A stretch of DNA of 56,916 nt, from NCBI GenBank assembly GCA_024636315.1, contig JAGXHJ010000050.1, forward strand, positions 1 to 56,916, read 5' to 3'. Source of the DNA: Methylophaga sp. (GTDB lineage Bacteria; Pseudomonadota; Gammaproteobacteria; Nitrosococcales; Methylophagaceae). Below are positions 28,634-53,922 of this stretch, piece after piece. A model generated the notes under the pieces. That model had not been told where the DNA came from. It did no database searches and was given only the letters and a program-made list of their open reading frames with translations. How positions within the stretch are numbered: the stretch's first letter is position 1; each line of letters begins with the position of its first letter. The position numbers and the translations under genes were made by a program.

Positions 28634-29152
28634 TTAGCTTGCAGCAAAAGGGTGTGAGCTAGTTTTATATTGTGCTAAAACGTCAGCTGCTTTTGGTTCA
28701 CGAGCAACGGCACGTTTGATTGATTCTTTAGTTGCGCGGTAGTTCCAATCTTGAATTTTTTGATCGTTATCTGCAGTTGGAGAAATGAAAACACCAACAC
28801 AGATGAAACAATCATCAGCTTCAGCCATAGGAATTGTGCCATCTTCAACACATTCAGCAACAGCTATCGCAACACCGCGTTGAGCTGGGCCGAACATTTG
28901 TACAGCTTGTTTCATGTTTTTGATAGTTACTTTGTTGAACATAACTGTCGCAGGTTTAACCATAAGATTAGGTGCAACTACAGCTAGTAAGCCGTTAACA
29001 CCTGCTTTTTGGTCTGTCATTGTGCGGCAGAAAGCGTCTTCTGCTGCTGAACCACGAGGGCCCATAAGTAAGTCAATGTGTGCTACGTTGTCTAGGTCAC
29101 CATCTTCAATTACTAAAGATTCACCTACTAATACGCGATCGATAACTGGCAT
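28634..29152 (-). CDS. fae: Formaldehyde-activating enzyme
   Basis: Fae condenses formaldehyde with tetrahydromethanopterin to methylene-H4MPT in the cytoplasm. It is the entry step of the H4MPT oxidation route. The protein (172 aa from this start) matches the family end to end: [14 protein letters not shown] with the catalytic His, [15 protein letters not shown], and [13 protein letters not shown]. The frame extends to ATG 29194, but ATG 29152 has an AGGA box nine bases upstream and begins at the family-typical [12 protein letters not shown]. It is the last gene before the terminator. Confidence 0.96.
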
Positions 29153-29278
29153 GTTATTTATTCCTGTTCCAAAAAATTTGTTAAAAAGGCCCATTTTACA
29201 CTCGCCTTATTACTAAGGAGAGCTTATACGTATTAAAGGAACGTATGACCTGCTCAGTCCTTGATACGATATATCGCA

Positions 29279-30154
29279 TCATGGCGCTGAAATACTGTTA
29301 GAAGAAAGAGCTTGTTGGAACGCATAGATTAACAGCGTCGCTGCGGTTAAATCTGCGGTCGTTCCCGGATTGATTGCTTTCTTCTTTAATTCGTTATCCC
29401 AAGTAATGATTTCTGCCTCAAAAGAGCTTAACATATTGTTTTCATTTACTTTCGTTAGTAGCTTTGTCGCTGCTTCAGTTATTTCTAGGGCGTGTTCCCA
29501 TGATTGTTTTCGGCGAATCAAGGTGTCAGGAACACTTGCTAAGAACTTAAGATACGCGAAAGCGGTGGCCCATTCAACACTTTCCCCAGATTTTATCGAA
29601 GATGTCAATATTGGCAGTCCGAAATTTAAGATATCCTTGTAATTAGTAACGTATTGCTTAGCTATAGCGTCGCGTTCTTCAGCAATTTTCATTGCTTGCC
29701 ATAAAGTTACGCTAGGAATTGCGTCAATATCTTGTTGCTCACTGCTTCCAAGTCCTCCTGCATCTGCTAAACGAATGGCTTCGTAGCATGCTTTTGCATC
29801 ATCAATCGTGAGGCTGAGTAGAACTTTCTCTAGTTCCTCGGGGAGTTGTTCAAAATGCGAACATTGGTGTATTGCACGACATAATGGTGCAAACAACAAC
29901 ACGATACCTAGGTTGGTATTGCAATTTACTACCGTTCGCGTGGCTTGGATGGCTTGTAAGATAAGTTCACCGACAGACAATGTCTTTTGCGACATAATCC
30001 GAGCGATGGCATGGGCACTTTTGATGAAATCTTGCACCTCCATTCTATGGCCGTCACTGAAGCAATTTACATTGCCTGGTTTGGGGGCTGCGACTTCGTT
30101 TTCACACGCCCAAATAACACAGCTTTCGATAGTGTTGCTAGATAACATGCTCAT
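29279..30154 (-). CDS. CitG-like protein required for H4MPT biosynthesis (Orf5)
   Basis: A 291-aa protein of the triphosphoribosyl-dephospho-CoA synthase (CitG) superfamily, with EVAAPKPGNVN near residue 20, NTNLGIVLLFAPL near 80 and a C-terminal NPGTTADLTAATLLI motif. The methylotroph member, called Orf5 in Methylobacterium extorquens, is needed for H4MPT-dependent metabolism; its exact reaction is not established. It overlaps the preceding gene by four bases and is followed 84 bp later by the fae leader. Confidence 0.87.
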   Translation of the reverse strand: MSMLSSNTIESCVIWACENEVAAPKPGNVNCFSDGHRMEVQDFIKSAHAIARIMSQKTLSVGELILQAIQATRTVVNCNTNLGIVLLFAPLCRAIHQCSHFEQLPEELEKVLLSLTIDDAKACYEAIRLADAGGLGSSEQQDIDAIPSVTLWQAMKIAEERDAIAKQYVTNYKDILNFGLPILTSSIKSGESVEWATAFAYLKFLASVPDTLIRRKQSWEHALEITEAATKLLTKVNENNMLSSFEAEIITWDNELKKKAINPGTTADLTAATLLIYAFQQALSSNSISAP

Positions 30155-31068: not shown

Positions 31069-31071
31069 TAA

Positions 31072-33390
31072 TTAAGCCTTTTGTAAAAATTCATAATGAT
31101 TGGGTAAGTTTGTCCAAGTTGTTGTTTTACCCAAGTCTTCAATACTTGTAAGTCGGAACTTAAAGTCCCTAGAGCCGGAAACATCAATTGATGAGTCTAA
31201 CTTTGTTGCAGTTCCTAGTTCAAATAACCAGTAATTTTTATTGGCATTAGCGGGTCGAGCTTTAGCCCCCGCTTGGTCATCTCTTATCTGATCACGCCTC
31301 ACTAAACGAACAGAATTAATGGTGTAGCTAAACTCAATACGCCGTTGTTCATCGTCAGGAAAATAAACAACAAAAGCACAGGATTTGAGCTCACGCATCA
31401 CTTCTCGTTGAACTTGTTGAGTTGCGGATGTTGATTCAGGCAAATGATACCATTTAGCCTTGCCAAGTCTAAAATGTTCTAAATAAACGTCGCTTCTTTT
31501 AGCTCCCAGAGCAACAACTAGAGATAGATTTTGGTATTTTGATAATGTCATGCCGGTATAACTGATCCGAGCGGCTTCTTGCACATAAAAACGATCAGAT
31601 GATTCAAGCTTATAGCCGACAGATGTATTATCCAAAGGGCCAAACTGGTCGACTAGAAAATCACGTAACCAGCGGTTTTTTGAATTCGGCAATAAAGGGA
31701 AAGCGCCAATACCAATCTCATCGATGGCTTTACGATAGGGATTTTGAATGTCACTATTTTCAAACCAACCGGGATATAAAACAAATGCGCCAAAGATGGG
31801 GCGTGTTTTTTGTTGCCAACCATCATCTGCGTGATGGATATGAATTAATGCATCACGGTACCGGTGCATCTGATTTATGGCATCATCAGGGGCATAATCA
31901 ACGTCATCATCTTTTGAATCAATGCGGTACTTAGCATCAAAAATCCAGCGTAATTTATCACCGCTTTCAAATTCCGCCTCTAATAAAATATCGGGTTTTT
32001 GACTGGTGGTCCAAGAATAAATATTGCCTGATCTAGGGTTACTAGAGCGACGAAATAAAGGCTCATGAGCTAAGCGGAGTTTAATTTTTCCCCGCTCCAA
32101 ATTAAAGGCAGCCCCAATGCCATCATGCAATACTTTTTCTACTCCATTTGTGTATAAGTCTACCTTGCGCTTCTCGAGTTCAGAAAAACCCAATTCATCA
32201 ATTAAAATTCTACGCACTTCCAATAAACACCATATTTCATAAAGTTCAGCTATCGACTTCATTGAAATACGGGCATGATGCCCAAACACATCAAGGTACA
32301 ACTTCAATTGCTGCCAAACACGATAAACATTAGCGTAGCCTGCTTTTTGATGTAACACTAATGATTCATTATTTAAGTCGTCATAATCACCAATATCCTT
32401 AAAAAAAGGACGCTTAAGAGAGTTTTCCAACGGCTTTTTCCAGTGCTCAAGCTGTTCAAAAAAAGTATCGGATAATCGACTGTTTTCAGGTGCAATATTA
32501 TTTGCTTTGACGCGATTAATAAACGTCGATAGTTCGCGAACACATCGAATCAACACCATTTTAATAAAGCGGTTTTCCGGCGTATCAAGTGATAAAAATT
32601 TAGAATCGAGTTGATAGCGTTTATTAAGATCATTATTTTTTAATGCGGTTCTAACCTGCTCTTCAAGTTTAGAAGACAAGCGACCTTTAAGCTGCTCTAC
32701 TCTTAATGTTTTTGTTCGAGGCAATAACCGAGAATGTGGGGCGCGTAAAATGTGTTTAACCCCTTTTTCTAATTCCTTTCGTAAGCTTTCAAATTGAGAT
32801 AACCAGAGTAAGGGAAAACGCTCATGGGGCTTACGAGAGCGTGCCAGCTCTTGCTCGGTCTTCTGTGCAAAAGAAAAACGAAACAGTGGGTAGTTTTTAT
32901 CAATAATTTGTTGGATATCAGATAAATCCGTTTCAATATCCATTTTAGTAGGAAAAACCTCAAACGAAATGGCTTGAACAATCTCCTTATCATTTAGGCG
33001 ATAACACAACACTAGCTTAAACCAGCCCACATCATTGCCAAAGTTAAGGCTACCTCGTAATGACTGCCCAGAGTAATGAAATGCATCTTCAATAGCCTGT
33101 AAGCGATGTTTTATAACGGGTTCACGGGCAAGTTGGGCCACTTTGAACTGAAAATCAAACTCATACAATTTATTTTCAAAAAACAAAGGCGCGTCAGAGC
33201 AGATAAAGTCGCTTTCTCGGCTATCTGAATCAGTAAGATGCAACAAAGGATCAAATCGTAAACGGGTAGCAGGAAGTGCCGTTTTTCTATTGTTTAAGGT
33301 ATGACTTAGCAATTTTTGAGATTGGCTAATGTCCTTACTCCAGACAATAAGTTGCCAGTCTACGGTCTCAAGCTTTAATAACTCAGGCAT
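31072..33390 (-). CDS. McrC/LlaJI R2-like restriction subunit, DUF2357 with PD-(D/E)XK nuclease
   Basis: A 772-aa protein whose N-terminal and middle part resembles DUF2357 proteins that partner McrB-type NTPases. A PD-(D/E)XK nuclease core is visible: KPDILLEAEF (about residues 461-470) and FDAKYR (about 480-486). The last 200 or so residues form an extra domain that I cannot name; it ends FKFRLTSIEDLG...NHYEFL. It starts 23 bp after the McrB-like gene. By analogy with McrBC, LlaJI and BsuMI it would cut DNA when its partner translocates between sites. The cleaved target is unknown. Confidence 0.82.
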   Translation of the reverse strand: MPELLKLETVDWQLIVWSKDISQSQKLLSHTLNNRKTALPATRLRFDPLLHLTDSDSRESDFICSDAPLFFENKLYEFDFQFKVAQLAREPVIKHRLQAIEDAFHYSGQSLRGSLNFGNDVGWFKLVLCYRLNDKEIVQAISFEVFPTKMDIETDLSDIQQIIDKNYPLFRFSFAQKTEQELARSRKPHERFPLLWLSQFESLRKELEKGVKHILRAPHSRLLPRTKTLRVEQLKGRLSSKLEEQVRTALKNNDLNKRYQLDSKFLSLDTPENRFIKMVLIRCVRELSTFINRVKANNIAPENSRLSDTFFEQLEHWKKPLENSLKRPFFKDIGDYDDLNNESLVLHQKAGYANVYRVWQQLKLYLDVFGHHARISMKSIAELYEIWCLLEVRRILIDELGFSELEKRKVDLYTNGVEKVLHDGIGAAFNLERGKIKLRLAHEPLFRRSSNPRSGNIYSWTTSQKPDILLEAEFESGDKLRWIFDAKYRIDSKDDDVDYAPDDAINQMHRYRDALIHIHHADDGWQQKTRPIFGAFVLYPGWFENSDIQNPYRKAIDEIGIGAFPLLPNSKNRWLRDFLVDQFGPLDNTSVGYKLESSDRFYVQEAARISYTGMTLSKYQNLSLVVALGAKRSDVYLEHFRLGKAKWYHLPESTSATQQVQREVMRELKSCAFVVYFPDDEQRRIEFSYTINSVRLVRRDQIRDDQAGAKARPANANKNYWLFELGTATKLDSSIDVSGSRDFKFRLTSIEDLGKTTTWTNLPNHYEFLQKA

Positions 33391-33413
33391 AATGAAATAT
33401 CTTCAGCAATGGC

Positions 33414-35480
33414 TTACGGCCAAAAAGAAGTAAAGCCATTATCTCTTAAACGATTCTGCATCCAGTTTATTTTCTTCTTAGAACGGCATGAAATAGTAAG
33501 CGTCGAACCCTCCGTTCCTTCTCGTAATAAATCGGGACGAGATGGCTCATCACCCCAAATGTCATTCAGCTGAGCAGCAAGAATGGCCGCTAATTTATCA
33601 AGTAAGTTTTGCTCGCTATTGTCTTGTAATTTTTCACCATCACCCTCCATTCTAGGTAATACCTTAGTCATCAAAAAATCATCCCATATCGCTTGCAGTT
33701 CATGGTCATTTTTAGGCTGAAAACAAACAACGGCAAGCAACAACTCATTTAATGCGCGGTAAGCTAGTTCAAAAGGGGTCGATTTTAATACTGAATTAAT
33801 TGATTCTAAAAAGGTGATGCTTTTACTTCCCTTTGCATCATAATCAACAAGATCAGATTCATTAACACTTGAAAGCATTGGGTAACTAAGCGCCTTAATT
33901 TTTGTTGTTTCGTTAAAATAGGCTTGATAATCATTAGGAAAAAACTCACCAAAATCTAGCGTAAAGGCTCGATCAATCACCTTACGAGAGAAACCATGCG
34001 TTGTTTCATCCATATTTACCGTACCGGCCACAATCAAGTTTGGTGGAATACTGATCCCTTTGGCTACAAAATGAGCCCATAAATCATCATGCTCATCTCC
34101 ATCTAAACCAAGGTTTTTTCTTAATGATAATGGCTCAGCAATAAGAGAAAAAATACTGGCATTAAGCATCGGTTCACAATGATAGTGCCCATTTTCCCAA
34201 TGTCGAGATTCGATCACCGATAAATAGTCAGCAAAATATTGCTCAACAGGGGCAAGATTCATTTCATCCAAACATAACCAATAAGGTATAGCTTGTTGGT
34301 TATAGGTAATGCGACTGTCATCAATAGCAAGAATGACCTCTTTCCAAGCCGCAACCATAAAACGTAAAAAATCAGTCACTATATATTCAGTGCCATTACT
34401 TCCTAAACGCGACACGTAACCCAATAAATCAGAAGGTTCGTGCCAGTCAGGGCGAACAGCGACTAAACAATAATTTGAACCATCTGCACTAAAGTTTAAA
34501 GCTTGCTGTTTTACGAAACGCGTTTTTCCTGTACCGGATATGCCGGAAAGGAGGATGAAGGGTTTGGGGAGACGTAGCGTTGTACTCGGAAGAGAATTGA
34601 AAGTATTTTTAAGTAATAAAAAATAACCATCGTCTTTTATAATCGTATATTTGGGGTATTTAAGCTCAAAAAAGGTCTTTAAATTATCAAAAGATAAGCT
34701 ATGTTCTCCATTGCCATTCCATTGGGTTGAGAAATAATAGTATTTTCCATGTTCCTTATAAACGGGAGGCACAAAGAATCTTTGCGTATTACTTGAAATT
34801 AGCTTTTCTCTATCTTGTTCACTATCAAACTCAGCTATTAACCTTGTGAAAGACTCAAATTTATATGATTTAAAATTGATATTATTTATGGATGAATCAC
34901 TACTTGTTGATTTATCTAAAACCTCTTTCCATTTAAGTCCGTAAAAATAACTAAAGACTTGTAATGCAAATTCACGTAATGAATTTTCTCTTAATATTTC
35001 AGGAAAACTAGAATTAATTTGTTCTGCAACAATTTCCGATTGGATTGTCTTTGGGTTGTACTCTTTGATTAATTTCAGTAATAGCTCTTTTGTTACAGTT
35101 AGTGCGTTAGTATCTAAATTAATGTGATTATCATCAACGTAATCCTGTCCATTTGCCCATGAAATTATTTTAGAAAAGGTTGAAAATAAAGGTTTTGTTT
35201 GGACGGTACTTATAGACTTCAAAGCCGTATCTACAAAATAGCGCCCTCCCAGATCCCGCCATTCTTTTTCAGAATAAAGAGTATGCTCACGAAAGGCACC
35301 TATATTAGATTCAATATTAGAAAGCCCAGATAAAATAGATTCTAGAGACAAAGTGAATGCTTTTATTGGCTTACCTGTATTTTCAAAGGTAATGTATCCG
35401 CCGCTGGCCCCAGTGTATGCAGGGAATTTACTTGTATCCAGCCCAGATAGAAAGGCTGCCAAGTCATTATGTAAGCTCAT
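33414..35480 (-). CDS. McrB-like AAA+ NTPase, R-M subunit
   Basis: A 688-aa protein with an N-terminal half (1-300) of unknown fold that would be the DNA-recognition part, and a C-terminal AAA+ motor. Walker A is SGISGTGKTR (about 309-318), the McrB-type VRPDWHEPSDLLGY follows, Walker B is LCLDEMNLAP (about 400-409), and the sensor/arginine region is NMDETTHGFSRKVIDRAF (about 490-507). Whether it uses GTP like E. coli McrB or ATP cannot be told. It overlaps the methyltransferase stop by 14 bp and has a strong GGAGG box within that gene. Confidence 0.87.
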   Translation of the reverse strand: MSLHNDLAAFLSGLDTSKFPAYTGASGGYITFENTGKPIKAFTLSLESILSGLSNIESNIGAFREHTLYSEKEWRDLGGRYFVDTALKSISTVQTKPLFSTFSKIISWANGQDYVDDNHINLDTNALTVTKELLLKLIKEYNPKTIQSEIVAEQINSSFPEILRENSLREFALQVFSYFYGLKWKEVLDKSTSSDSSINNINFKSYKFESFTRLIAEFDSEQDREKLISSNTQRFFVPPVYKEHGKYYYFSTQWNGNGEHSLSFDNLKTFFELKYPKYTIIKDDGYFLLLKNTFNSLPSTTLRLPKPFILLSGISGTGKTRFVKQQALNFSADGSNYCLVAVRPDWHEPSDLLGYVSRLGSNGTEYIVTDFLRFMVAAWKEVILAIDDSRITYNQQAIPYWLCLDEMNLAPVEQYFADYLSVIESRHWENGHYHCEPMLNASIFSLIAEPLSLRKNLGLDGDEHDDLWAHFVAKGISIPPNLIVAGTVNMDETTHGFSRKVIDRAFTLDFGEFFPNDYQAYFNETTKIKALSYPMLSSVNESDLVDYDAKGSKSITFLESINSVLKSTPFELAYRALNELLLAVVCFQPKNDHELQAIWDDFLMTKVLPRMEGDGEKLQDNSEQNLLDKLAAILAAQLNDIWGDEPSRPDLLREGTEGSTLTISCRSKKKINWMQNRLRDNGFTSFWP

Positions 35481-36720
35481 TACTAACCTCCAATATTTGG
35501 TGATATATCTCTTTTACTAAACAGGAAATCACGGGAGTAGAAACACTATTTCCAAACTGTTTATATGCCTGAACACTAGAAGCATGAATAGAAAATGTAT
35601 CAGGAAACCCTTGAAGTCTAGCGGCCTCACGATGTGTTACTTTTCTTGGATTATAATTTTCTTGTTCTATTAATATTTCGCTACCATCTTTATAATATCT
35701 AGCTGAAATCGTATTCGTATAAGGGCTATCAGGCGTTACGCACCCATAACCAAATCCTTTACCATCTTTTTTGTTTTGTATTTTACGGCGTTGATGTCCG
35801 GCCCAAAGCTTATCCGAAATAGTGTATTTTGGATCTGGGTCAGCCTCCAGTATGTCCCCAACACACGTTGTTACTCCCAAAGGAACTGGATAATGAAAAA
35901 AATCAATTAAGCCGTCTAGCCATAAAACAATATAAATCCTTTGCCTGTTCTGCGGTACACCAAAATCAATTGACTTTAACACCATTTTTTTTGCTTCTGC
36001 CTGTAGCTCTTTGGATGAACCATTAAGAATAATACTTTTTGGTATATTACAGCTATATCCCATGTCCACGAGTGTTTTAAGAATTACCTGCAATGTATAA
36101 CCCTTATCATGGCTAATTAGGCCTTTTACATTTTCGAGAACCGCTACTTTTGGTTTTTTTACCGATAATATTTCAGCAATATTATGAAAAAGAGTGCCTC
36201 TAGTATCTTCTATCCCTTGCTTCAAGCCGGCATGTGAAAAAGGTTGACAGGGAAAGCCAGCAAATAACACATCATGACTAGGAATAGCATCTACTGGAAT
36301 TTTGGTTATATCTCCAAAAGGAAGCTCACCGTGATTATCTAGGTAAGTTTGCTGTGCATTTTTCTCAAATTCAGATGAAAACACACAAACACCACCATTA
36401 TTTTGTGCGCCAATCCTCATTCCCCCAATACCTGCAAAGAGGTCAATGAAAGTAAATATTGCCTTTTTAGGTGGGGTAATGGGCAAGTGTGAGGTTAGAT
36501 TATGATGAAATGAAGTTTTGCTTTTGTAGAGATTATTATTTTCCAGTATTTTAATAATAGCTGAATTATCAAGTTCTTGAGAATTACCAAACAAAGGCAG
36601 GTTATTTGCTATTGCATGCGCCCACTGATGAACCACTGCTTTAGGCTCGCTTTGTTCTGGGACATATTTTAGTGCCATAGGCACTAAAATATGTTCTAAC
36701 TTTTCTAGAATATTACTCAC
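35467..36720 (-). CDS. DNA (cytosine-5-)-methyltransferase, Dcm-like
   Basis: A 417-aa m5C methyltransferase with motif I FIDLFAGIGG (about residue 90), catalytic GFPCQPFSHAG (Cys near 157), motif VI ENVKGL, motif VIII NRQRIYIV and motif X QFGNSVSTPV. Its target-recognition region carries GFGYG and SARYYKDGSEILI, a pattern I know from E. coli Dcm. The first 85 residues are an extension, as in Dcm. The start is GTG 36720 with a weak ribosome binding site, or ATG 36678, which lies in the middle of a long palindrome. It is the first gene of the cassette. Confidence 0.92.
   Translation of the reverse strand: MSNILEKLEHILVPMALKYVPEQSEPKAVVHQWAHAIANNLPLFGNSQELDNSAIIKILENNNLYKSKTSFHHNLTSHLPITPPKKAIFTFIDLFAGIGGMRIGAQNNGGVCVFSSEFEKNAQQTYLDNHGELPFGDITKIPVDAIPSHDVLFAGFPCQPFSHAGLKQGIEDTRGTLFHNIAEILSVKKPKVAVLENVKGLISHDKGYTLQVILKTLVDMGYSCNIPKSIILNGSSKELQAEAKKMVLKSIDFGVPQNRQRIYIVLWLDGLIDFFHYPVPLGVTTCVGDILEADPDPKYTISDKLWAGHQRRKIQNKKDGKGFGYGCVTPDSPYTNTISARYYKDGSEILIEQENYNPRKVTHREAARLQGFPDTFSIHASSVQAYKQFGNSVSTPVISCLVKEIYHQILEVSNELT
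36662..36694. repeat. Perfect 15-bp-arm palindrome at the start of the methyltransferase gene
   Basis: ACATATTTTAGTGCC (36662-36676) and GGCACTAAAATATGT (36680-36694) are exact complements with a 3-bp centre. The in-frame ATG at 36678 (Met15 of the long form) sits in the middle. As RNA it would form a 15-bp hairpin; as DNA it is a strong dimer-binding candidate. Confidence 0.92.
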
Positions 36721-36988
36721 AGTAGCTATATTTCCAAGTATATTGCTTTCTAAATCCTTAGCTCATTAAATGTCTGCTTTAAAATATCAGGTATATTTAG
36801 TCAGGTATTTATCTACAAACAATTTCTGTTTCAGCACCGGATCGCTTGTTGTGAATGCCATGCAAATTCAGCAGACAAACCAATCTTCCTTGATTGGAGC
36901 GCTGTAGCGGTTCACTTTCTCATTTTCGAAAACTATCGAAATAATTATCTGGCCAATAGGTTCCGAGTTCTCGATCGATTATAAACAA
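36721..36988. other. 268-bp gap between mch and the R-M cassette
   Basis: No intact gene is visible. A 24-codon minus-strand frame starting MAFTTSDPVLKQK and neighbouring short frames could be remnants of a lost gene, but they are too short to assign. No direct repeats matching the other edge of the cassette (near 31070) are apparent. Confidence 0.4.
36737..36742 (-). promoter_or_regulatory. Possible -10 box upstream of the R-M cassette
   Basis: TATACT on the minus strand, about 17 bp before the GTG start. I see no good -35 partner, so this is weak. The cassette may instead be read from the mch promoter. Confidence 0.2.
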
Positions 36989-37972
36989 TTAAAGACCAAA
37001 CGAAGTCGTTAATAATTCTGAATTTAACTCGCCAGCGGTGAAACTCTTACCCGTTTTTGCATTAGTAATAATAACTTTTGCTGGGCTGAATAACATAGGA
37101 TCAATCTTGAAAAAGTCATATTCATAGGCTTTAAAGATTTCACCAAATGGACGACCATAGTCTGCAGAGGTGTTACTTGGCATCTTTTCAGCTAAATCAC
37201 GCGCTTCATCATCGGTGGCATTAACGAATAAATGCACCATGCCGCCATAAAGAATCGCATCGTTAGTACGACCCATGCCCGTTATGAAGTCACCACCTGG
37301 AGGTGCAACCGGTGTTACACCAAAACCATCGATGATTTTATCCATAGGGAAATGTAAGGTATGTGCTTTATGCATCGCAACTTCAAGTACACGAATGGCA
37401 ATTTGCATAACACCAGCAAGGCTTGATGTTGGCGTTAGGATAAACGTTAAATCTTCGGGTTTAATGCCGCAGTCCTTAGCTACTTTGTCAGCAACTTCAA
37501 CAGGCGGAAAAGAGTCCACTTCTAACACGATGCAAGTGGATGTTGCTTCATCTTTGTAGCCAAATTCTATTAATACTTCTTCTTTACCTGCTAAGGCACG
37601 ACCTGGACCTGAACCTAAAGCGAAAAATTTACCTGCTTCACTTTTATGCGACAAGCTCCACCCAGCATATTGACTACCTAAAGTACTCAGAACAGGCATT
37701 TTAGCGTGCACATTTACCGACCATGGCCAGTTAGCAAAACCGCTATTAGTACCTAAGGTGACGGTACCTAATCCACCCATGCAGATTTCACCAATCAAGC
37801 GGCCGGCTTCTAAGCCACCTACACAATTAATGCCTGCATCAACAATGCGGGTGCCATTGCTTAGTGTGCTGACTTCAAGTTGTAATGCTTGCGCATCAGC
37901 AACTAAACGTTCAACGATAGGTTGGAAGTTAGCGTGAATGCTGCCCCAATTGGCAGAAATATTGCTACTCAT
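36989..37972 (-). CDS. mch: N5,N10-methenyltetrahydromethanopterin cyclohydrolase
   Basis: Mch interconverts methenyl-H4MPT and formyl-H4MPT, the step after methylene-H4MPT dehydrogenase in formaldehyde oxidation. The 327-aa length and motifs match the family throughout: GINCVGGLEAGRLIGEICMGGLG, NPW-like WPWSVNVHA, FALGSGPGRALAGKE and TPVAPPGGDFITGMGRTNDA. It has its own promoter and an AGGA box eight bases from the ATG. In other methylotrophs it directly neighbours the orf5/orf7/fae genes; here 5.9 kb intervene. Confidence 0.96.
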   Translation of the reverse strand: MSSNISANWGSIHANFQPIVERLVADAQALQLEVSTLSNGTRIVDAGINCVGGLEAGRLIGEICMGGLGTVTLGTNSGFANWPWSVNVHAKMPVLSTLGSQYAGWSLSHKSEAGKFFALGSGPGRALAGKEEVLIEFGYKDEATSTCIVLEVDSFPPVEVADKVAKDCGIKPEDLTFILTPTSSLAGVMQIAIRVLEVAMHKAHTLHFPMDKIIDGFGVTPVAPPGGDFITGMGRTNDAILYGGMVHLFVNATDDEARDLAEKMPSNTSADYGRPFGEIFKAYEYDFFKIDPMLFSPAKVIITNAKTGKSFTAGELNSELLTTSFGL

Positions 37973-51733: not shown

Positions 51734-51775
51734 ATAAGCAGTTCACTTTAAGCTTACTTAAAGTGAACTGCTTAT
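51734..51775. terminator. Bidirectional terminator-like hairpin between gshA and the FIST gene
   Basis: ATAAGCAGTTCACTTTAA (51734-51751) and TTAAAGTGAACTGCTTAT (51758-51775) are perfect 18-bp arms around a 6-base loop. They lie between two convergent stops. No strong T-tract on the plus side; a short one (ATATTTTAAT) on the minus side. Confidence 0.7.
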
Positions 51776-53876: not shown

Positions 53877-53922
53877 GCATAAAAAAGGCTGTGTTCATTA
53901 ATGAACACAGCCTTTTTTATGC
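53877..53922. terminator. Bidirectional rho-independent terminator
   Basis: A 46-nt perfect palindrome: GCAT, six A, GGCTGTGTTC, centre ATTAAT, GAACACAGCC, six T, ATGC. The A and T runs give a proper terminator in both directions between the convergent DUF1097 and gatB genes. Confidence 0.92.

Follow-up and report, generated by a model that had tools for sequence, protein, structure and literature searches.

A Putative PcaI/LlaJI-Type Restriction–Modification Cassette with Potentially Exchangeable Reader Modules in a Methylophaga Methylotrophy Gene Cluster

The DNA stretch analyzed here (56,916 nucleotides of Methylophaga sp. contig JAGXHJ010000050.1; hereafter, the window) carries a three-gene cassette between the genes mch and rimK. 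It encodes a 5-methylcytosine (m5C) DNA methyltransferase (MT), a McrB-like AAA+ protein and a McrC-type nuclease; the AAA+ motor and the nuclease are collectively called the engine, and the genome carrying the window cassette is designated G000. Based on sequence comparisons, we interpret the cassette as a horizontally acquired and probably functional restriction–modification (RM) system of the PcaI/LlaJI kind, in which exchangeable reader modules would serve one motor–nuclease (probability roughly 0.72).

Composition and Predicted Function of the Cassette

35467-36720, minus strand: m5C DNA methyltransferase, 417 amino acids (aa), GTG start (PF00145, E = 1.3e-89)
33414-35480, minus strand: McrB-like AAA+ protein (PADLOC PDC-M26A, E = 2.7e-40)
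31072-33390, minus strand: McrC-type nuclease (DUF2357, PF09823, E = 6.7e-62; PDDEXK_7, PF04411, E = 1.9e-39)

The original prediction, made from the letters of the window, placed these three genes on the minus strand between mch and rimK, in agreement with the coordinates and the Pfam and PADLOC matches. Its spacings are exact: there is a 14-bp overlap between the MT gene and the McrB-like gene, 23 bp separate the McrB-like gene from the nuclease gene, and 3 bp separate the latter from rimK. All three genes are uninterrupted and encode the expected domains, with catalytic motifs present in each translation.

The MT possesses an N-terminal extension of ~88 aa and has M.HhaI as a solved-structure relative (E = 1e-61). 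The catalytic motifs PCQ, ENV, QNRQR and GNSV were all found in its translation by eye. The McrB-like protein consists of an N-terminal region of ~295 aa without a family match, likely a specificity domain, and an AAA+ motor with the motifs GISGTGKT, LDE and VNMDE (also read by eye). No Pfam model reaches its cut-off on this protein; AAA_5 gives E = 0.002, under its cut-off, and the scan produced no match to MrcB_N (PF12102, DUF3578). NMDE, an NxD-type motif, is kept in 26 of 26 listed McrB relatives, and its presence places the window protein in the NxD branch of McrB GTPases. The nuclease contains a PD...DAK motif and an additional C-terminal part of ~230 aa. Membership in the CoCoNuTs was considered and provisionally dropped, as Pfam scans gave no coiled-coil or RNA-binding domain match (coiled coils were not computed).

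The cassette thus combines an intact, co-oriented and adjoining MT, a McrB-like AAA+ protein with a non-MrcB_N N-terminal domain, and a DUF2357 plus PD-(D/E)xK nuclease, as in RM systems of the PcaI/LlaJI type. The hallmark of Type IV McrBC, MrcB_N without a cognate MT, is absent from it and present in a cassette found at the same site in another genome, G023.

By analogy, its mode of action is most likely that of PcaI, with the MT protecting and the AAA+ protein plus nuclease restricting unmethylated DNA. Judging from the protein families, the MT would methylate a host motif, and the N-terminal domain of the McrB-like protein would bind the same motif when unmethylated. As in McrBC, the NxD-type AAA+ ring would then translocate, and the DUF2357/PDDEXK_7 subunit would cut.

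A perfect inverted repeat with 15-bp arms and a 3-nt loop lies within the 5′ coding end of the MT gene (36662-36694); when the window was shuffled 20 times with dinucleotides preserved, no arm exceeded 11, and nothing comparable was found at that place in 19 MT homologues examined. It is possibly an operator, an mRNA hairpin or a translational control element.

Proposed Alternative Reader Modules on a Shared Engine

A profile built from an alignment of four nuclease sequences was searched against genome contigs, and the best 80 of 169 relatives were kept, including those of genomes G023, G027 and G034. Loci were sorted by tblastn, with two m5C MT queries restricted to the same strand and to the 3.2 kb upstream. 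An MT was found in 37 of the 80 loci, MrcB_N in 20, both in none and neither in nine; upstream sequence was too short in eight (two of which show MrcB_N), and six had no AAA hit. MT and MrcB_N are accordingly together in 0 of 57 classified loci (Fisher p = 2.5e-10 on 66 judged loci); other MTs could be missed, because the search was confined to these two queries and this region. A simple motif look revealed no MT motifs on that strand in the MrcB_N loci and in the loci with neither, one of which (L100) has MT-like matches downstream on the opposite strand. MTs related to that of the window recur beside engines lacking MrcB_N, and the MrcB_N members checked in Pfam (4/4) match PF12102 at 1e-53 or better.

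A quick tree was built from the AAA parts of the window and the 57 classified loci; 14 changes of state are needed on it, at least eight of them forced by well-supported branches. Since shuffled labels require ~17 changes (32 of 500 shuffles for MT and 38 for MrcB_N were as low), the MT/MrcB_N state is nearly independent of engine phylogeny.

Pairs of loci sharing DNA on both flanks point to exchange in place. Under loose length thresholds, 19 of 760 MT × MrcB_N pairs (window included) share both flanks, and ten pass a strict test requiring colinear matches within 4 kb; the same test is passed by 9 of 703 MT–MT pairs and 2 of 190 MrcB_N pairs. The ten strict pairs form four site groups: the window with L077 at mch-rimK; L127 with L122 and L128 in Psychrobacter; L101, L102 and L103 with L151 and L152 in a shared region; and L112 with L145 in Pectobacterium. 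In the cleanest pair, L127/L122, identity is 90% across 5.4 kb on the upstream side and 93% from the beginning of the AAA part through 8.8 kb, the difference being confined to the 5′ half. L103 and L152, both labelled Methylophaga aminisulfidivorans, are 94% identical upstream, 92% in the engine and 94% downstream; matches in the other strict pairs are patchier. Breakpoints were examined in six pairs, including L112/L111 and L130/L151, which fail the strict test. Homology resumes ~7 to 19 codons before Walker A, as judged by BLAST ends, and the unmatched segment spans 1980-2415 nt in the MT member versus 712-1290 nt in the MrcB_N member.

We hypothesize that the MT plus N-domain module and the MT-free MrcB_N module are mutually exclusive partners of one motor–nuclease and replace each other in situ, close to where the AAA domain begins. 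Such a locus could carry a predicted restrictor of unmethylated DNA or a predicted restrictor of methylated DNA, not both, and would thereby avoid self-cleavage. We lean slightly toward the stronger version of this hypothesis, in which the two modules are true alternative alleles swapped by homologous recombination from upstream DNA to the codons just before Walker A, so that lineages would flip the restricted DNA state, keep the motor–nuclease and never carry both.

Several observations weigh against this reading of the cassette. The L152 nuclease lies in two frames, being either broken or affected by a sequencing error, and L103 and L152 also differ near the nuclease end. The pairs L112/L111, L119/L150, L119/L153 and L119/L114 were counted loosely and lost once colinearity and nearness were required. 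The AAA tree is a quick one with 20 of 55 inner branches open, and the nuclease and AAA trees order G000, G023 and G027 differently. The G000/G023 pair alone shows no direct swap, because the engines differ by ~30% in protein. Finally, the N-terminal domain of the window McrB-like protein could not be assigned: its assignment by fold was dropped, with a model predicted local distance difference test (pLDDT) score of 56 and no PDB match at E ≤ 0.001. A search for a within-species swap in E. coli, with a Pectobacterium engine as query, gave no match, and a literature search on MT/MrcB_N reader-half swaps of McrBC-type engines found nothing on point.

History of the mch-rimK Site

36989-37972, minus strand: mch, upstream neighbor (PF02289; TIGR03120 above cut-off)
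36721-36988, minus strand: 268-bp gap from mch stop to MT start, candidate promoter region, absent from the original prediction
31069-31071, minus strand: 3-bp junction from nuclease stop to rimK start, with equal spacing in G023 (L037 9951-9953)
30151-31068, minus strand: RimK/MptN-like ligase, downstream neighbor (TIGR00768 above cut-off; NF040720 E = 1.4e-61, below its cut-off)
29279-30154: citG-like gene
28634-29194: fae (PF08714)

The mch query matched 36 of 59 genomes searched, and 35 junctions, the window included, were compared (L045 and L046 come from another family of the order). The cassette is absent at 32 of them, where the gaps are empty and measure −4 to 96 bp; a cassette engine is present at two, in the window and in G023. 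As far as these sequences tell, the cassette is not ancestral at mch-rimK, because 32 of 35 compared junctions are empty; an arrangement ancestral and universal in the clade would have refuted the original prediction. Closest to the window are G006 and G005, with 95 and 94% identity in mch; their gaps, of 58 and 54 bp, are empty and contain a strong hairpin followed by a T-run, resembling an intrinsic terminator, and this segment is missing from the window. Once its lineage had diverged from these nearest sequenced relatives, the cassette would have replaced the segment between mch and rimK.

Folding of empty gaps (L040-L070) covered 22 of the 32, ten gaps of 22 bp or less being excluded, with no shuffle control. 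Folds of −14 kcal/mol or lower were obtained in 15 of 22 and not in seven, with few T-runs; the position of the hairpins is common, and their sequences differ.

GC content per 500-bp bin is 31-42% in the cassette versus 41-47% in mch, cca and slt. A recombination footprint in the flanks was sought and dropped: identity to G006 varies between 79 and 99% per 150-bp bin with no clear step near the junction, and the last 24 bp of mch contain just five differences, a number too small to carry weight. Transport by a plasmid or a phage was likewise dropped, as none of 13 matching plasmid records covers over 80% of the query, a single phage-labelled record is 27% identical over 65%, and there was no viral-contig relative. 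RM mobility is reportedly a subject of work by the Kobayashi laboratory; our literature searches for RM cassettes inserted in operons and for RM in Methylophaga found nothing on point. Elsewhere in the window, perfect inverted repeats at 53877-53922 (23-bp arms) and 51734-51775 (19-bp arms) are perhaps bidirectional terminators.

A related cassette occupies the same site in G023 (95% complete, 6% contamination); as this second genome was assembled separately, a chimaeric contig is disfavored. The order in G023 is mch, an RHH-like open reading frame (ORF; matches below cut-off), a PIN toxin (PF01850, E = 1.1e-19), a McrB-like gene with MrcB_N (PF12102, E = 1.5e-55), the nuclease gene, 3 bp and rimK, and no MT was found in this cassette. 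Its AAA part and nuclease are 73% and 68% identical to those of the window, and its N-terminal domain weakly matches the structure of the E. coli McrB N-domain (E = 0.0015). G027 carries the engine at another site, where the MT is a different one and the N-domain is EVE-like (E = 0.0088, below cut-off). That cassette lies between hda (PF22688) and the gene normally next to it, which is −19 to +18 bp from hda in 19 same-genus genomes (hit ends), and it ends ~20 bp before the chosen start codon of the next gene. A ParD/ParE pair (PF03693, PF05016) precedes the G027 MT (L038 12697-13303), as the PIN-toxin pair precedes the G023 cassette. In G034, also at another site, MT and McrB are 66% and 44% identical to those of the window. 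The McrB-like protein was detected in no further genome of the 59, bar a faint match in G036 (E = 6e-4).

It is quite conceivable, if somewhat below an even chance, that two independent insertions entered a permissive mch-rimK gap and that the G000 and G023 cassettes are not allelic. The nearest relatives of G000 are empty, and the engine trees do not group G000 with G023 to the exclusion of other loci. A third insert, in G031, is an unrelated ORF of 175 aa without a Pfam match (L071 5693-6220); all three inserts above 300 bp fall in the mch-rimK gap, with none in the other seven cluster gaps (measurable rows). However, G000 and G023 have the same 3-bp right junction, though a flush fit to a same-strand ORF (−60 to +30 bp; crude ORF calling) was seen for only 6 of the 69 nuclease genes examined, three of the six being those of G000, G023 and G027.

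Transcription Across the Cassette and the fae Leader

According to the original prediction, loss of the cassette would be penalized and defense tied to C1 metabolism. In this scenario transcription of rimK, citG and fae starts in the cassette or passes through it, and cassette expression follows growth on methanol. Part of its groundwork stands. The genes share one strand, an AAGG stretch in the final nuclease codons could act as the predicted rimK ribosome binding site, and the hairpin with T-run 3′ of fae (28610-28581) is the first-listed terminator-like site, as proposed. The 3-bp junction offers no room for a terminator, and because it is flush, read-through into rimK and citG is plausible; G023 has an equally flush junction, and in G027 the cassette lies within a closely spaced gene pair, after hda.

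We nevertheless consider capture of the operon unlikely, and neither the penalty on loss nor the tie of defense to C1 metabolism is supported. Because the terminator-like hairpin of G006 and G005 lies between mch and rimK, these genes need not form one simple transcript; most junctions lack the cassette altogether, few nuclease genes are flush with the next ORF, and fae has a conserved leader of its own. The 268-bp gap before the MT, moreover, is long enough to house a promoter and is a candidate region for one. A simple scan of its minus strand found no sigma-70-like site, and apart from itself the gap has no match above chance in the 59 genomes searched. It contains a weak terminator-like hairpin (36897-36880); single weak sites of this kind mean little, since 15 were found in the window versus 11.9 expected from shuffles.

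The conserved candidate structured RNA leader before fae (29184-29295, minus strand, between citG and fae) includes a covarying first stem, a GAGCAGG motif and an ATACGT/ACGTAT hairpin, whose CCT loop could pair with AGG as a pseudoknot. With 23 of the 33 leaders aligned, 92.8% of cells pair, a level reached in 0 of 500 shuffles. Six pairs, all in the first stem, show changes on both sides, a count reached in 2 of 500 shuffles. One slid control likewise has six such pairs, the RNAalifold energy is only −1.64 kcal/mol, and the second hairpin and possible pseudoknot show one-sided changes only. The leader has no Rfam match. Matches to its model R1 (E up to 0.1) occur in 35 of 59 genomes in the relatives set, those in G031 and G042 being weak and G028 having two, and in 4 of 369 class-wide genomes, all of the same family. 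Because the leader is conserved and partly backed by covariation, fae likely has control of its own, and the RNA possibly regulates the formaldehyde-activating enzyme; a literature search on fae with riboswitches found nothing on point.

Comparison with Described Systems

Judged by gene content, PcaI (PcaRCI) of Pectobacterium carotovorum comes closest among described systems; it is reported to restrict plasmids and phage, acting on unmethylated DNA (PMC8989522). The comparison is by description, not sequence; the Pectobacterium loci L111, L112 and L145 stand in for PcaI, and L112, which carries an MT, is of the NxD type. As described there, PcaI resembles the window cassette in having one Dcm-like m5C MT, a McrB-like AAA+ protein whose N-domain is unrelated and a DUF2357 nuclease carrying large extensions. 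Its locus is a variable low-GC region with toxin–antitoxin genes, whereas the window cassette sits in a methylotrophy gene cluster; the portion of PMC8989522 describing this locus reports no MrcB_N version at that site.

The label "LlaJI-like", used in the original prediction, is right in kind, with PcaI closer in gene content (one MT, AAA+, DUF2357 nuclease). LlaJI also pairs a McrBC-like enzyme with methylation, but it has two MTs, is plasmid-borne and recognizes an asymmetric site; its authors proposed two mutually exclusive modes, directed at methylated (McrBC) or unmethylated (LlaJI) DNA (PMC1459862). The N-domain of LlaJI is described as B3 type (PMC12707154). E. coli McrBC shares the AAA+ motor and the DUF2357/PD-(D/E)xK nuclease; unlike the window cassette, it has no MT, a methylcytosine-reading N-domain (DUF3578) and NxxD rather than NxD (PMC11090510). 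The NxD branch in the same CoCoNuTs census has NxD followed by E, as in the window, and an association with MTs is noted; according to the census, no NxD McrB had been characterized at that time, and the MT-associated branch was deferred to later work (PMC11090510). The DpnI/DpnII/DpnIII locus of Streptococcus similarly hosts alternative cassettes of opposite methylation preference (PMC12707154). There, as far as that account goes, whole cassettes with different enzymes alternate, whereas here the motor and nuclease are constant and the 5′ half changes.

Less probable still than operon capture is a Type IV reading, in which the McrB-like protein would recognize modified DNA through a novel reader domain and the MT would be an orphan with no relation to it. 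In its favor, the window N-domain has no family assignment, EVE and MrcB_N readers are known among McrBC relatives, and G027 pairs its MT with the sub-threshold EVE-like domain. Against it, MT and MrcB_N never co-occur among the classified loci, the MT and McrB-like genes overlap, window-related MTs recur beside engines without MrcB_N, and PcaI, with the same gene set, is reported to restrict unmethylated DNA (PMC8989522).

Biological Implications

A cell that combines RM with methyl-directed restriction may be killed by the combination, a conflict described and shown with PcaI (PMC8989522). With exchangeable reader modules, this conflict would not arise, because the two modes would be alternatives of one locus. 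If true, the reader-half swap would explain how a lineage may change its epigenetic incompatibility group without self-killing, and it would provide a direct, testable model of a McrBC-type motor accepting readers of opposite DNA states.

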